Shown here piece by piece: positions 4,834-41,535 of a DNA stretch of 64,000 bases. Every line of letters starts with the position of its first letter. The first letter of the stretch is position 1. The position numbers were made by a program, and so were the translations under genes. Below the pieces are notes generated by a model, which made no database searches, was not told the origin of the DNA, and saw nothing but the letters and a program-made list of their open reading frames with translations. Origin of the DNA: Granulosicoccus antarcticus IMCC3135 (GTDB lineage Bacteria > Pseudomonadota > Gammaproteobacteria > Granulosicoccales > Granulosicoccaceae); contig NZ_CP018632.1 in NCBI RefSeq assembly GCF_002215215.1, positions 4,026,501 to 4,090,500 on the forward strand, read 5' to 3'.

Positions 4834-6207
4834 TTGTTCGATAAATCCTTCGAATCACTGCGTTTGAATCTTCTTGAGCTTCTAAAGTCGAAGCACGAGT
4901 GGTTGTTGAGCGGCAAGGAGTATGCCGACCTTCCAGAGAGCATTCGGGGTGCTATTGAGGAACAGCAAAATAGTAGCGAACGCTTCATCAGCTGGATTCA
5001 GATCGCCATACTGGTCGTGTTTTCGGTTCTCTACACAATGGCACCTAAAACCTCACCCATAGGTGCAGAGTTCGAACCCGTGCCTATATTTCTGGGCACC
5101 TATTTTGTTTTCGCGTGTTTACGTCTGTACTTATCCTACACATCACGTTTGGCTCACTGGATCCTGTTCCTGTCTATTTTGGTAGATATGGGCTTGTTAC
5201 TAGGATTGATCTGGTCTTTTCATCTTCAATATATGCAGCCGCCTTCGTTCTATCTGAAGTCACCGACATTGCTGTACATATTCATTTTCATCGCGCTTCG
5301 TGCTTTACGTTTTGAGCCAGGCTACGTACTTCTATCCGGTATTGTGGGCGCTGCGGGTTGGTTGCTTCTGATGGTTCTTGCCATCCTGGATGAGTCAGGT
5401 CGTTCTGTCATAACGAATGACTATGTTATATATCTGACATCCAACAGCGTACTGATTGGTGGTGAACTCGACAAGATGATTTCAATTCTGGTCGTTACTT
5501 TCATTCTGACACTTGCAATTTCCAGAGCACGACGTCTGATGGTCCGATCGATTGTCGATGGTCGAACAGCAGAAAGCCTTTCACTATTCATCCCGGAGGG
5601 CGTCGCTTCTCAAATTGAGAAAAGTGATGGACCGCTGATCAATGCACAAACTGAAACCCGTGAAGCCAGCATCCTGTTTGTAGACCTGACCTCGTTTACC
5701 AGCCTTGCAGAGAGCCTGCCACCTGAGAATCTCATCGCGGTATTGAATGAGTATTTCCTCCTTATCTCAGGACCCATAGAGCGCAATCATGGAGTAATCA
5801 ATCAGTTTCAGGGTGATGCGATTCTGGCAAGTTTCAACCTGCCAACCGAGGATCCTGATCACGCCAGTAGTGCGATATCAGCAGCTCTTGAAATTCAGAG
5901 GGTTTTGCATGAGTATCAGTTTGAAGGAGGCATAACCTTGTCCACCCGCACAGGGATCAATACTGGCACAGTGGTTGGAGGATTTATCGGAACACCAGTA
6001 CGATTGAGCTATACCGTATACGGAGATAGTGTCAACATTGCCTCTCGACTCCAGGTATTAAGCAAGCAATACAATACCGCCAATCTGGTTTCTTTTCGCA
6101 CTATGCAGCTTTGTGACCATGAACGATTTGCATTCAAGAAAAAGGGCAGTGAAATACTCCGAGGCCGCACTCACCCCATCGTATTCTATGAGGCGAGCGC
6201 GAAATGA
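4834..6207 (+). CDS. Membrane-anchored class III adenylate/guanylate cyclase
   Basis: Predicted membrane cyclase, 457 residues. The N-terminal half holds a short cytoplasmic region and about six hydrophobic segments (about 53-70, 85-100, 107-128, 145-162, 168-187, 212-230). The C-terminal half is a class III catalytic domain from about 277: ILFVDLTSFTSLAE with a metal-binding Asp near 285, then FQGDAILASFN with the second Asp, and YGDSVNIASRLQ. These make cAMP (or cGMP) synthesis likely. The start is TTG; no in-frame ATG occurs before residue 69, inside the first membrane region, so TTG is favoured despite a weak ribosome-binding site. It stands alone, with no obvious operon partner. The signal sensed is unknown. 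Confidence 0.85.
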   Translation: MFDKSFESLRLNLLELLKSKHEWLLSGKEYADLPESIRGAIEEQQNSSERFISWIQIAILVVFSVLYTMAPKTSPIGAEFEPVPIFLGTYFVFACLRLYLSYTSRLAHWILFLSILVDMGLLLGLIWSFHLQYMQPPSFYLKSPTLLYIFIFIALRALRFEPGYVLLSGIVGAAGWLLLMVLAILDESGRSVITNDYVIYLTSNSVLIGGELDKMISILVVTFILTLAISRARRLMVRSIVDGRTAESLSLFIPEGVASQIEKSDGPLINAQTETREASILFVDLTSFTSLAESLPPENLIAVLNEYFLLISGPIERNHGVINQFQGDAILASFNLPTEDPDHASSAISAALEIQRVLHEYQFEGGITLSTRTGINTGTVVGGFIGTPVRLSYTVYGDSVNIASRLQVLSKQYNTANLVSFRTMQLCDHERFAFKKKGSEILRGRTHPIVFYEASAK

Positions 6208-20100: not shown

Positions 20101-20820
20101 TCAGGTCGCCTGGAGAGCCGGTAGCAGGCGGTCGTATTCCTTCTTGACGACCGCGTAGCATTCGCACGTCCGCTGTTCCAGGCCTTTGCGGTCCAGCACC
20201 GTGATGTGGCCCCGCGCATAGCGGATCAAGCCGGCCCTCTGCAGCTTGAGCGCCGCTTCGGTTACGCCCTCACGTCTTACGCCGAGCATGTTGGCGATGA
20301 GTTCCTGGGTCATCACGAGCTCATTACCGTGTAGGCGATCCAGGCTAAGCAGCAGCCAGCGGCACAGTTGCTGATCAAGAGAGTGGTGTCGATTGCAGAC
20401 CGCCGTCTGCGCCATTTGCGTGATCAGCGCTTGCGTGTAGCGGAGTAATACGCGCATCACCGGGCCGGAGCGGTTGAACTCGCCCTTGATCACGCCGGCC
20501 TTTAGACGAAATCCCTGCCCCGCACTTTGCACGACGGCGCGGCTGGGCGTCGACTCGCCGCCCATGAAAAGGGAAATGCCGACCGCGCCTTCGTTGCCGA
20601 CCACCGCAATCTCGGCCGACGCACCGCTTTCCATCACGTAGAGCAGAGAGACGATCGCCGTCGACGGAAAGTAGATGTGCGTCTGCTGCGTGCCAGACTC
20701 ATAGAGCACGTCGCCGAGGGACAACTTGACCCACTCCAGCTGGGGAAGCCACCGCGTCCATTCGGCCTCGGGCAGCGCCGCGAGCAGGTGGTTGGACTTG
20801 GGGTCATGGCCGATCGGCAT
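20101..20820 (-). CDS. Crp/Fnr-family transcription regulator (second copy)
   Basis: Regulator of 239 residues, homologous to the downstream neighbour. The effector domain contains YESGTQQTHIYFPSTAIVSL and VVGNEGAVGISLFMGG, and the C-terminal HTH contains VMTQELIANMLGVRREGVTE with LQRAGLIRYARGHITVLDR. Both copies end in a Cys-x-Cys-Tyr-Ala-like segment (CECYAV here, CDCYAA in the other), a shared feature worth noting. It is divergent from the phosphoketolase gene and could control it through the 250-base gap. No effector-specific residues were recognised. Confidence 0.85.
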   Translation of the reverse strand: MPIGHDPKSNHLLAALPEAEWTRWLPQLEWVKLSLGDVLYESGTQQTHIYFPSTAIVSLLYVMESGASAEIAVVGNEGAVGISLFMGGESTPSRAVVQSAGQGFRLKAGVIKGEFNRSGPVMRVLLRYTQALITQMAQTAVCNRHHSLDQQLCRWLLLSLDRLHGNELVMTQELIANMLGVRREGVTEAALKLQRAGLIRYARGHITVLDRKGLEQRTCECYAVVKKEYDRLLPALQAT

Positions 20821-35882: not shown

Positions 35883-38174
35883 ATGGATCCACTCATAGAG
35901 AACCTCAGCTCAACCACCTTTGCAGGCAAGCGATTTACCCGCAAGCAAATCTGCACCATCCAGGAAACCTGTCGCGCTTTTCCAGCACTAAGCCGACGGG
36001 AATTGGCTCATACGATTAGCGAACATCTAGGCTGGTGTACACCGGCGGGCAAGCACAAGATTCAGTCCTGCCTGAGCACGCTGGAGTCGCTGGAAAAACT
36101 GGGCATTGTGTCCTTGCCAGCAATCGATGAGACCAAGAGACCAGGCCTGCAGAAGCAGATCAAACCGACTTCTCGCTCAGAGCAACAACCTCTCATCGAC
36201 GAGCCGTTGGACCAGCTGGCAATTACGGTTCAATTGGCCGCAGACAAGCACGACATCGGGCTGTGGAACGAGCTAGTCGACAGGCATCATTACCTGGGCT
36301 ACAGGCGACCTATTGGGCCGCATTTGCGCTATTTCATTGTCGATGCGCAAGGACGAAAGTTAGGCTGCCTGATGTTCTGCTATGCCGTCAAGTCGCTACC
36401 TTGTCGTGATCAATGGATTGGCTGGCAGGAACAGAAATACAAAAAACACCTGGATTTGCTAGTCAATAACAATCGATTCCTGATCTTCCCGTGGGTAAAA
36501 GTGAAATGCCTGGCCTCAAAGTCGTTATCCATGGCCTGCAAACAATTGAGCGATGATTGGCTGGCGAACTACCACACGCGTCCCGTGCTGGTCGAGACAT
36601 TCATTGATCCGACAAGATTCAAAGCCACCTGCTACCGCGCGGCCAATTGGCAATGCCTGGGTCAGACCAAAGGCCAATCTGCCACTAAAAGCACACCGGG
36701 TAAATCTGCGAAAGATGTCTATGTTTTTGCACTGACCCGGAACCCCAAACCCATACTGATCAATGGCCCTGAGCTTGTCCGCAAAAAAGGTAAAGCACAC
36801 TCTAGAAATACAGGCCATACGCCCAGACCACTGGGCCCAACTGATCCCTTTGTTCAGCTGTGGCAAAACATCATTGGCACCGTGATTCACGTTGCTCATG
36901 ATTTCGATCGGCAATGGCAAAAGCGTCAACGCGTGTTGAACTCACTGTTGATCATGCTCTTCATCTTCCGGCTGGTTTTTTCAACGAACAAACAAGGCTA
37001 TGCCATCACCACCGCTGAGCTTTGGGAGCAGTGCCGCACTCTGGGCATAGACCTTCCTCAACCCACGCCGGTCGCAGCATCAGCTTTTTGTAATGCTCGC
37101 GCCAAATTAGATGAAGAGGTGTTCAAGTTACTCCAGGTTCAAATACTTCAACAAGCCAAACCCGACCCCAAAAAACTATGGCAAGGCCATCGTCTAATGG
37201 CTGTTGATGGATCAAAATTGAACTTACCTCGGCAGTTGATTCGCGCAGGCTACAAAACGCCCTCGGACAATGCCCATTATCCACAAGGTACTGTGAGCTG
37301 CCTCTATGAGCTAAAAACGAAAATTCCCATCGATTTTGACTTGGCCAGTCATCGCGATGAGCGCAAAATGGCGATCAGCCACCTGAACTCACTCTCTGAA
37401 ACCGATGTGGTGGTCTATGATCGTGGATATTACTCGTATGACATGCTGCACGAGCATGACAAACGTCACATACACCCTATCTTTCGACTCAAGACAACCG
37501 CCTGTCGCGTGGTTGAAGCATTTGCCAACAGCGATGACATCGATGCCGTCGTCCAGATTTTTCCTAGCCAGTCAAAGCGCACATCCATACCTGCGCACGA
37601 CCCACAGCCGGATTACCCAGCACTCGCGCTGCGGTTAGTGAAATACGATGCTGGCGGAACAAGCTACATTCTGGGCACCACATTATGGGATCAGAAAAAA
37701 TACAGCATTGAGCAACTGTCAGCGGTCTATCACTCGCGCTGGGGTGTCGAAGAGTTGTACAAAATATCCAAACAGCTGATGAAAGTCGAAGACTTTCATG
37801 CTCAAAGCGAGCGAGGCGTCAAGCAGGAACTCTTTGCACATTTTAACCTCATCACTCTCGCTCGATTATTTGCCAATCACAGTGAGGATGGCTTTCAATC
37901 AAAAAGCGAGCAAGGCGAAAGTGAAAAGCACGCCATTAAAGCGAACTTCAAAAACTGCCTCATGACGGTGGCTAGACATATCGAAGCTTTGTTACTTCAA
38001 CAAACCAACCTGCTGAACAAGACCGTGAACACCATTATCGCTAGCATTAGCACGTGCCGGCAGAAGTTACGCCCCAACAGATCGTACGCGCGATGCTCAA
38101 GAAAGCCTGTGGGCAAGTGGAAAGCACCAAAACCAGCAAAACTCGCCGCAGCAAAGACACCGATTACGGCTTAA
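35883..38174 (+). CDS. DUF4338 (DruA-like) - IS4 DDE transposase fusion
   Basis: A 763-residue protein with two recognisable modules. Residues about 1-75 hold a helix-turn-helix-like region (FPALSRRELAHTISEHLGW). Residues about 105-300 match DUF4338, the domain of Druantia protein DruA: LWNELVDRHHYLGYRRPIG, PHLRYFIVDAQGRKLG, CRDQWIGW, FLIFPWVKVKCLASKSLS and VETFIDPTRFKATCYRAANW. From about 330 comes an IS4-type DDE transposase: Asp442 in MAVDGSKLNLP, Asp near 512 in VVVYDRGYYSYDM, and the IS4 YREK signature YHSRWGVEELYKISK with Glu near 622. All motifs appear intact. DUF4338 is known to occur near transposases; here it is covalently joined to one. Confidence 0.88.
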   Translation: MDPLIENLSSTTFAGKRFTRKQICTIQETCRAFPALSRRELAHTISEHLGWCTPAGKHKIQSCLSTLESLEKLGIVSLPAIDETKRPGLQKQIKPTSRSEQQPLIDEPLDQLAITVQLAADKHDIGLWNELVDRHHYLGYRRPIGPHLRYFIVDAQGRKLGCLMFCYAVKSLPCRDQWIGWQEQKYKKHLDLLVNNNRFLIFPWVKVKCLASKSLSMACKQLSDDWLANYHTRPVLVETFIDPTRFKATCYRAANWQCLGQTKGQSATKSTPGKSAKDVYVFALTRNPKPILINGPELVRKKGKAHSRNTGHTPRPLGPTDPFVQLWQNIIGTVIHVAHDFDRQWQKRQRVLNSLLIMLFIFRLVFSTNKQGYAITTAELWEQCRTLGIDLPQPTPVAASAFCNARAKLDEEVFKLLQVQILQQAKPDPKKLWQGHRLMAVDGSKLNLPRQLIRAGYKTPSDNAHYPQGTVSCLYELKTKIPIDFDLASHRDERKMAISHLNSLSETDVVVYDRGYYSYDMLHEHDKRHIHPIFRLKTTACRVVEAFANSDDIDAVVQIFPSQSKRTSIPAHDPQPDYPALALRLVKYDAGGTSYILGTTLWDQKKYSIEQLSAVYHSRWGVEELYKISKQLMKVEDFHAQSERGVKQELFAHFNLITLARLFANHSEDGFQSKSEQGESEKHAIKANFKNCLMTVARHIEALLLQQTNLLNKTVNTIIASISTCRQKLRPNRSYARCSRKPVGKWKAPKPAKLAAAKTPITA

Positions 38175-39834: not shown

Positions 39835-41535
39835 CTATTCAGGGTGAACGACGTTCCCATGTTTCAGTCTTATGTCCTGCAACAGTTTAATTAACTCTGT
39901 TGAATTGTCTATAGTGAATATGTCCAACGGCTTCTCACGCCCTCGCACATGTACAGTATGTTGGGGGAGCTCTCGATAATTAACACCGATATTGCGCAAA
40001 ACATCTTTGGACACTATAAGACCGGTGCAATATTCTTTGGTTAGAGCTTCAAGTCTAGCGGCAATATTTACGATATCCCCAAGAGCGGAAACTGTCGGCG
40101 AATCGGGTGGTCCCATGGTTCCCACAATGGCATACCCGCAGTGTATGCCGATTCCAACCCTGATCGGGAATTTCAATTCTGCCGCTAACCACACGTTGAG
40201 TTTCTCCAGTCTTTGCCAGATTTCCACTACACCTTCCAATGCTTGACGACATCCGCTCTCCAGGTCACTATCCAGACCATACAAGGCCATTAGTCCATCG
40301 CCATTGAATGTGGCGTAATGGCCGTTGGTTGCATGCAGGGCGTCGGCAAGCTGTTTGAAAAACTGATTATGTATGTAGACCACATCGTAGGGTAATCTTT
40401 CCTCGCCCAGTCTGGTTGAATCTCGCATGTCTACCAACATGCAGGTGATCTGTTGCTCGTGCCCCATCAAACCAACCATAGGTGTGGAGCTATCGGGGTG
40501 CAACAATGGGGTGATCGAAATATCCTGCTGCGGCCGGAGCTGACAAGCGAGTCTCACACTAGGATTGGCGCCGATACGTTTTAAAGCGAGCATCTCCAGC
40601 GCCCCAGGCTCTGGAAGCGAAGACTTACACGCCGTAATTTTTACACGACAAGTTGTGCATCGACCTCTACCGCCACAGACTGCAGCATGCTGGATACCTG
40701 CCTCGCGAAGTGTATCCAGAATGGTCTGATTATCTCGTCCTGTTAGCTTTTTGCCAGTAGGGGTATGGAATATCAGATAACCTCCGTGATTTCTTCCCCA
40801 ATATTCCCGAATCGAACGAAAGATCAACACCGCGATCAACAGCAGCACAAATAACCACATTATCGACAATTCTAAACTTATAAGAAAATTGACTGAGACC
40901 GGGTCAGAATTCATTGTTTCCTGATGTATTTTCTGTAATACAGGTGAATCCGTTGGAAGTTGCCAGCTTTCAAGCCCTGCAGCTAGAAAACCCAGGCCAG
41001 CAAGCAATGGAATCATCAAGCACAACGGGTAGAGTACGGGCGTCCATTTTTTATACCCTCGTTTATGACGAAGCCAATAATGAATGCCCACAGACATGTG
41101 GATCCAGGCAACGCCCATCAATGCATATTGCTTAGCAATATCTACCGGCTGGCTCCACAAAATCGAAACCAATCCCGTGTAGTGCTTGTGGATATCAAGG
41201 ATTTCGTGGGAACCACGTGTAGCTGCGATATGACCAATCAACAACAAAGGCATCACAAGCGCCGTTGCGAATTGCAGCATATTCCAGGCAGGCATGCGCA
41301 GGCTACTGCGTTGAATCAATGAGACAAACATCAGCCCTGCATGAACAATAAATGCCGAATACAGCATTACGCCAAACAGCGGTATTGACCATATCGCGAA
41401 CAGAACTTTAGCTAAAGCATCCATGGCGGCCAATGAGATGATACCCAGAGCAGCATTGAGCAGATGCAGTACAAGAAAGAACGCAATGAATAATCCGCTG
41501 TATAACCGTAACCTGTGTTCTAATTTCGAGTTCAT
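39835..41535 (-). CDS. Membrane adenylate cyclase with [2Fe-2S] ferredoxin domain
   Basis: Protein of 566 residues in three parts. The N-terminal 240 residues have about six membrane helices with several in-membrane or edge histidines (LVLHLLN, FIVHAGL, LIGHIAATR, WIHMSVGIHYWL), a layout like heme-b membrane anchors. Residues about 262-345 form a plant-type ferredoxin domain with CGGRGRCTTC and a later LACQL cysteine, which would hold a [2Fe-2S] cluster. The C-terminal 200 residues are a class III cyclase (CMLVDMRDSTRLGEE, FNGDGLMALYG, LGDIVNIAARLEAL). The combination suggests redox- or oxygen-controlled cAMP synthesis. Convergent with the DMT transporter. Confidence 0.85.
   Translation of the reverse strand: MNSKLEHRLRLYSGLFIAFFLVLHLLNAALGIISLAAMDALAKVLFAIWSIPLFGVMLYSAFIVHAGLMFVSLIQRSSLRMPAWNMLQFATALVMPLLLIGHIAATRGSHEILDIHKHYTGLVSILWSQPVDIAKQYALMGVAWIHMSVGIHYWLRHKRGYKKWTPVLYPLCLMIPLLAGLGFLAAGLESWQLPTDSPVLQKIHQETMNSDPVSVNFLISLELSIMWLFVLLLIAVLIFRSIREYWGRNHGGYLIFHTPTGKKLTGRDNQTILDTLREAGIQHAAVCGGRGRCTTCRVKITACKSSLPEPGALEMLALKRIGANPSVRLACQLRPQQDISITPLLHPDSSTPMVGLMGHEQQITCMLVDMRDSTRLGEERLPYDVVYIHNQFFKQLADALHATNGHYATFNGDGLMALYGLDSDLESGCRQALEGVVEIWQRLEKLNVWLAAELKFPIRVGIGIHCGYAIVGTMGPPDSPTVSALGDIVNIAARLEALTKEYCTGLIVSKDVLRNIGVNYRELPQHTVHVRGREKPLDIFTIDNSTELIKLLQDIRLKHGNVVHPE

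Follow-up and report, generated by a model that had tools for sequence, protein, structure and literature searches.

Can a redox state sensed in the membrane control the synthesis of a cyclic nucleotide within a single polypeptide? The question is raised by one gene in a stretch of 64,000 nucleotides (the window) from Granulosicoccus antarcticus IMCC3135, whose genome is a single contig of 7.78 Mb. A preliminary description, made from the letters of the window, had placed at this locus a cyclase joining a membrane anchor, a [2Fe-2S] domain, and a class III catalytic domain, and its coordinates, strand, and three-part composition agree with the open reading frame and the Pfam matches. The gene is a single intact frame of 566 codons, with its ATG at 41535 and its stop codon ending at 39835, and the encoded domains stand in the order membrane domain, [2Fe-2S] (Fer2), and class III cyclase (Table 1). 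We read it as the gene for a class III nucleotide cyclase of the CyaC type, under redox control, whose diheme-b anchor would exchange electrons with the quinone pool, and we put the probability of this at roughly 0.8. The gene is under purifying selection, with a dN/dS of 0.20 over its whole length relative to the closest named relative (L032, uncultured Granulosicoccus, 94% identity); by part, the ratio is 0.21 in the membrane domain, 0.11 in the cyclase domain, the lowest, and 0.57 in the Fer2 part, the highest, where it was computed on 95 codons with few synonymous changes. Elsewhere in the window, a gene encoding a DruA domain and a DDE transposase (35883-38174) lies between a histidine kinase gene and an EamA transporter gene, and it is probably an insertion because L032 has no such gene between the same two neighbors.

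Table 1. Coordinates of the features discussed; positions without a locus handle are those of the window.
Feature	Position	Strand	Basis
CDS, 566 aa, CyaC-type membrane nucleotide cyclase	39835..41535	(-)	ORF, Pfam domains, relatives
Membrane domain of six helices, residues 8-240; SdhC/FrdC-like, probably a diheme-b anchor	40816..41514	(-)	Hydropathy, TIGR02046 in relatives
[2Fe-2S] ferredoxin domain, residues 258-336, C287 C293 C296 C331 (CX5CX2CX34C)	40528..40764	(-)	PF00111
Class III cyclase domain, residues 360-535	39931..40458	(-)	PF00211
H24, helix 1, invariant; probable distal heme ligand	41464..41466	(-)	Conservation; pairing inferred
H65, helix 2, invariant; probable proximal heme ligand	41341..41343	(-)	Conservation; pairing inferred
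H102, helix 3, invariant; probable distal heme ligand	41230..41232	(-)	Conservation; pairing inferred
H146, helix 4, invariant; probable proximal heme ligand	41098..41100	(-)	Conservation; pairing inferred
Module-MscS pair loci	L037:6281-10091, L080:1770-5095, L119:5920-9005, L151-L169, L189:2460-5797	channel on module's strand	

A family-averaged hydropathy profile places six hydrophobic segments near residues 24, 64, 95, 146, 175, and 230; the fourth is not seen when a stricter threshold is applied to the window protein by itself. Lys and Arg are more frequent per residue in the presumed inner loops than in the outer loops, and therefore both soluble domains should be cytoplasmic. The first 255 residues contain 12 histidines, four of which (H24, H65, H102, and H146) are invariant in 89/89 cyclase-fused sequences, the window protein included, and in 21/21 different cyclase-less sequences, a set from which G503 is absent as an identical row under another name and which preceded the finding of G1292. 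Sequences gathered by homology are bound to share some positions, but with identities to the window protein that range from 94% to ∼31% (cyclase-fused sequences measured) any site had room to change, and other histidines of the same sequences do vary: H7, H110, H116, H118, and H157 differ among homologues, and H152 is His in 47 of the 89 and mostly Tyr in the others. What had been described as a His-rich anchor, with transmembrane-His conservation named as a check, is thus found to hold a truly conserved set of four histidines among variable ones.

A heme in the membrane had also been suggested, and the invariant histidines support it together with matches to diheme cytochromes b in about half of the family members. 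By far the commonest match of the membrane domain is TIGR02046 (sdhC_b558, diheme succinate dehydrogenase cytochrome b), found in 5/10, 14/32, and 22/42 members in three NCBIfam scans with an E limit of 1 (best values 0.0022, 0.0022, and 9.2e-6, respectively), and its scores in two members, 19.4 and 17.8 bits, are far under the cut-off of 96. The next by E-value is NF010072 (fumarate reductase cytochrome b; 2/42 members, best E 2.1e-4), and the window copy itself has no match to TIGR02046 or Sdh_cyt at E 1. In the PDB, two membrane profiles searched to E 10 recovered a single sequence, 6lum_C, a succinate dehydrogenase subunit C, matched weakly at E 0.23 and 0.13. Diheme SdhC genes sought as a comparison set gave none above the cut-off in 150 Pseudomonadota genomes and two weak fragments, and an AlphaFold model of the whole protein from a three-row alignment (window, L032, and the L071 part) has a mean pLDDT of 38.7 and supports no claim. 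The diheme SdhC/FrdC cytochromes b (TIGR02046, NF010072) share with the window-type domain a His in each of the first four helices, but their fold has one helix fewer, the additional helix leading here to the cytoplasmic domains. The membrane domain probably binds heme, and probably two hemes; the pairing of the ligands follows the diheme SQR fold, in which we take helices 1 and 3 to hold one heme and helices 2 and 4 the other.

The [2Fe-2S] domain is equally well marked. PF00111 matches the window protein above its cut-off (E 1.6e-9, 38 bits against 21), and the four cluster cysteines C287, C293, C296, and C331, like the four histidines, are invariant in 89/89 cyclase-fused and 21/21 different cyclase-less sequences, so that this part of the preliminary description stands. 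NCBIfam fdx_isc matches 10/10 members, and the best PDB relatives of the family's cluster domain are [2Fe-2S] ferredoxins (3ah7, 1i7h, and adrenodoxin homologues). The cysteine spacing is common to the window domain and the ISC/adrenodoxin-type ferredoxins; unlike these, the window cluster domain is part of a larger protein, with a membrane domain before it and a cyclase after it. The N-terminal region of NqrF, in which a membrane helix is directly followed by Fer2, resembles residues 226-341 (E 1.6e-8), but the window protein is without the flavin/NADH reductase domain and has five more helices with heme-type His. The class III assignment was likewise correct: PF00211 (Guanylate_cyc) matches above its cut-off (E 1.7e-9, 38 bits against 21.9), and the window protein has the metal Asp residues D369 and D413 together with N490 and R494, which we take to be catalytic positions. 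Both metal Asp and the active-site Arg are kept in 89/89 cyclase-fused sequences and the Asn in 88/89.

The same architecture is known from Sinorhizobium meliloti CyaC (SMc01818), which the passages cited here describe as an adenylate cyclase under quinone control: it has six helices, a [2Fe-2S] cluster, two hemes b, and a class III catalytic domain, and its activity depends on quinone (PMC10463352). According to a passage elsewhere, the di-heme-B entity of its membrane domain regulates it (PMC9552081). The window family has the six segments, the tetra-His set, the [2Fe-2S] domain between the membrane and catalytic domains, and the catalytic residues; the likeness is one of architecture to a published description, with the place of the cluster domain in CyaC presumed. 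The window protein differs in having Thr at the substrate-specifying Lys position, and its host is a gammaproteobacterium of the Granulosicoccus lineage whereas that of CyaC is a rhizobium. In addition, cyaC of S. meliloti is flanked by TetR and LysR genes, and such neighbors were found neither beside the window gene nor in the other flanks inspected (L072-L074 read by eye). A scan of the loci with two self-made TetR/LysR motifs, of uncalibrated sensitivity and mostly over flanks of 1.5 kb, returned one LysR motif, in an unrelated cyclase locus (L008), and two annotated Rhizobiaceae plasmid loci have glycosyltransferase and methyltransferase neighbors. A literature search for a cyclase with a ferredoxin or iron-sulfur domain found no paper, and a term search of older surveys of cyclases and signaling proteins found no ferredoxin-type terms.

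By analogy with CyaC, the hemes b would lie between helices 1 and 3 (H24 and H102) and helices 2 and 4 (H65 and H146), as in diheme succinate dehydrogenases, and the six-helix domain would exchange electrons with the quinone pool. The cytoplasmic [2Fe-2S] domain, standing between the membrane and catalytic domains, could relay or report the redox state, and the catalytic homodimer would then make more or less cyclic nucleotide; if the window protein follows CyaC, it would bind heme b, respond to quinone, and be activated on oxidation. The redox control proposed in the preliminary description is published for the same architecture in S. meliloti (PMC10463352, in the part cited) and applies here by analogy, so that the proposed mechanism is largely known elsewhere and is met here in another genus.

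Within this design the role of the cluster is debatable. The hemes alone may sense the redox state, with the [2Fe-2S] domain acting as a structural linker or as a second, independent sensor of, for example, iron-sulfur supply or oxidative stress, and we regard this as a serious possibility, at somewhat under even odds. The published account of CyaC, in the part cited, stresses the hemes and quinones and has the cluster only in a figure legend (PMC10463352), sequence fixes no electron path, and of the three parts Fer2 shows the highest dN/dS. Against this, the cysteines of the cluster show no more variation than the heme histidines, with or without a fused cyclase, so that both cofactor sites have been kept together even where the cyclase is missing.

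The output is the other point at which readings part. In canonical class III adenylate cyclases a Lys, with an Asp/Thr partner, specifies ATP; the corresponding positions in the window protein, to which we assign these substrate roles, are T409 and S483, which depart from the ATP-specific rule. Over the 89 sequences the Lys position holds K in 59, Q in 17, T in seven, N in five, and S in one, and in the window's Granulosicoccus clade (seven sequences in an alignment of 39) it holds T in six and S in one. The product of the window enzyme, cAMP or cGMP, is uncertain because of this replacement of the substrate Lys in its clade. That the enzyme makes cGMP, or a mixture, instead of cAMP seems unlikely to us: the adenine-selecting Lys is absent from the clade, and 2w01, the top PDB relative of the catalytic domain and presumably a guanylate cyclase, has Glu at this position, but the window residue is Thr and not that Glu, Gln variants of class III cyclases are known as adenylate cyclases, and the genome encodes cNMP-binding proteins. 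The variable Lys position and the altered pocket, together with the existence of cyclase-less relatives, could also be taken to mean that the protein serves mainly in electron transfer from quinol to the [2Fe-2S] cluster, with a secondary or weak cyclase. We consider this improbable, given that the metal Asp, R494, and, with one exception, N490 are conserved throughout and that dN/dS is lower in the catalytic domain than in the other two parts, which indicates that its enzymatic function is being maintained.

The genome as a whole matches the class III cyclase domain 11 times, twice in proteins of this redox type, and the cNMP-binding domain 23 times. The second, simpler membrane cyclase that had been noted near 4.8 kb is real (4834-6207, + strand; PF00211 E 1.8e-24, with hydrophobic N-terminal segments), and redox-specific cAMP signaling in this cell, as had been proposed, is possible. 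A gene at 20101-20820 (- strand), with a cNMP-binding domain match at genome positions 4046991-4047230, encodes a possible cyclic-nucleotide reader in the neighborhood. The other CyaC-type cyclase of the genome (4264250-4265860; L038:4224-6041) is 35% identical to the window protein and has K and T at the substrate positions, so that the two redox-type cyclases have different substrate pockets, the paralogue retaining the canonical Lys, unlike the window protein.

In a search of 57 genomes that included the window's own, the complete domain arrangement was also present in seven others of its genus, with best copies at 37-94% identity. A membrane plus [2Fe-2S] profile matches 67/398 Pseudomonadota genomes at 1e-12; 45 of these, the window genome included, match nearly the whole module and the others the C-terminal part only. 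The module is also found in 109/385 genomes of the class of G137 at 1e-25 (with a profile built from two cyclase-less copies) and in 106/247 genomes of family f70 at 1e-40. Family f70 is Rhizobium-like, because its G306 and G097 loci have the gene order of a named Rhizobium plasmid and contain stretches 83-87% identical to it. It is also found on 163 plasmid records, 140 of Rhizobium and six named Sinorhizobium, with 34.5-38.5% identity to the window protein among the 40 of 163 listed. In the Gammaproteobacteria it is rare: a profile built from the cyclase-less form matches 5/369 genomes at 1e-30, the window's among them, and the 398-genome search added four that belong to another gammaproteobacterial family. 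An IMG/VR contig (L071:3-4275) also carries the 3' portion of a gene for a CyaC-type cyclase, ahead of genes resembling, by eye, a phage or gene-transfer-agent terminase and portal.

The module also occurs without the cyclase. In G029, of the window's family, a six-helix plus [2Fe-2S] protein lacking the catalytic domain is encoded directly before an MscS-type channel gene, and the same arrangement is present in G137, of another class. The 247-genome search gave 20 short frames (<450 aa), of which 19 were taken, one cut by a contig end (G995) being left out; six further short frames came from the 385-genome search, and one of them (G503) is truly cyclase-less. The other five (G706, G762, G518, G642, and G656) are interrupted cyclase-fused genes, broken by a frameshift or truncated where the contig ends. 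In each of the resulting 22 cyclase-less genes (19 from f70 plus G029, G137, and G503) the next gene lies on the same strand and is similar to the G137 channel (blastp, weakest E 9.5e-72), which itself served as the query. The module and channel genes overlap by 4 bases in 13/22, the start codon being not fixed in the others, and a GFGAQ-type motif is present in 20/22 channels. Four of these channels were run against Pfam or NCBIfam and all belong to the MscS family, and for two that were scanned the closest NCBIfam model, below its cut-off, is PRK11465, which we take to be Escherichia coli YbiO. A further cyclase-less gene followed by a channel gene was found among the 369 gammaproteobacterial genomes in another family (G1292), giving 23/23 pairs, of which 19 are from the Rhizobium-like family, two from Gammaproteobacteria (G029 and G1292), and two from a class other than that of the window (G137 and G503). 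Beside one pair are genes (L080:5137-8180) resembling, by eye, a glycine-betaine type ABC transporter, with a Crp-family regulator on the other side, possibly an osmotic-stress setting.

This channel was found at E 1e-5 in none of 24 stretches around cyclase-fused modules, the window included, four of which have cyclases frameshifted or cut by a contig end and one of which starts inside the module, the stretches other than the window being 6-12 kb long. When the 247 genomes of f70 were searched with the N-terminal part of the channel, 17 strong matches (E 1.3e-140 or better) were obtained, all 17 beside a cyclase-less module; six of them match by construction, since they were in the search profile. 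The remaining two pairs have channels that match at 3.9e-40 and 6.1e-32, and the latter is not distinct because unpaired channels reach 5.9e-36, the rest being weaker. In a tree of 95 modules (19 cyclase-less and 76 cyclase-fused), built by a quick method that left out 15 rows >85% identical and four short rows including G503, one branch parts the two kinds with an SH-aLRT of 100. Plasmid searches for one cyclase-less module and for its MscS partner gave no match at the strict limits of E 1e-40 and 1e-100. No paper on a mechanosensitive channel paired with a [2Fe-2S] or ferredoxin protein appeared among the matches listed in a literature search, which covered mostly papers free of subscription.

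Module and channel genes are paired in every case examined, and the module may control the channel. Most simply, a single redox module would serve two types of effector, the cyclase or, probably, the channel. Such a portable respiratory-redox module would have two outputs, a cyclase fusion and, in alpha- and gammaproteobacteria, a form tightly coupled as a gene pair with MscS, letting the quinone pool gate or tune the channel, and this broader proposal we find reasonably probable, with less confidence than the assignment of the window gene. The cyclase form is already known from a root-nodule bacterium, and the module-MscS pairing may be new. On our reading of the window gene, quinone-controlled cyclic-nucleotide signaling, characterized in one rhizobium, would extend to a gammaproteobacterial lineage. 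If the channel answers to the module, the respiratory chain would be tied directly to a mechanosensitive channel, and respiration to turgor or solute release.
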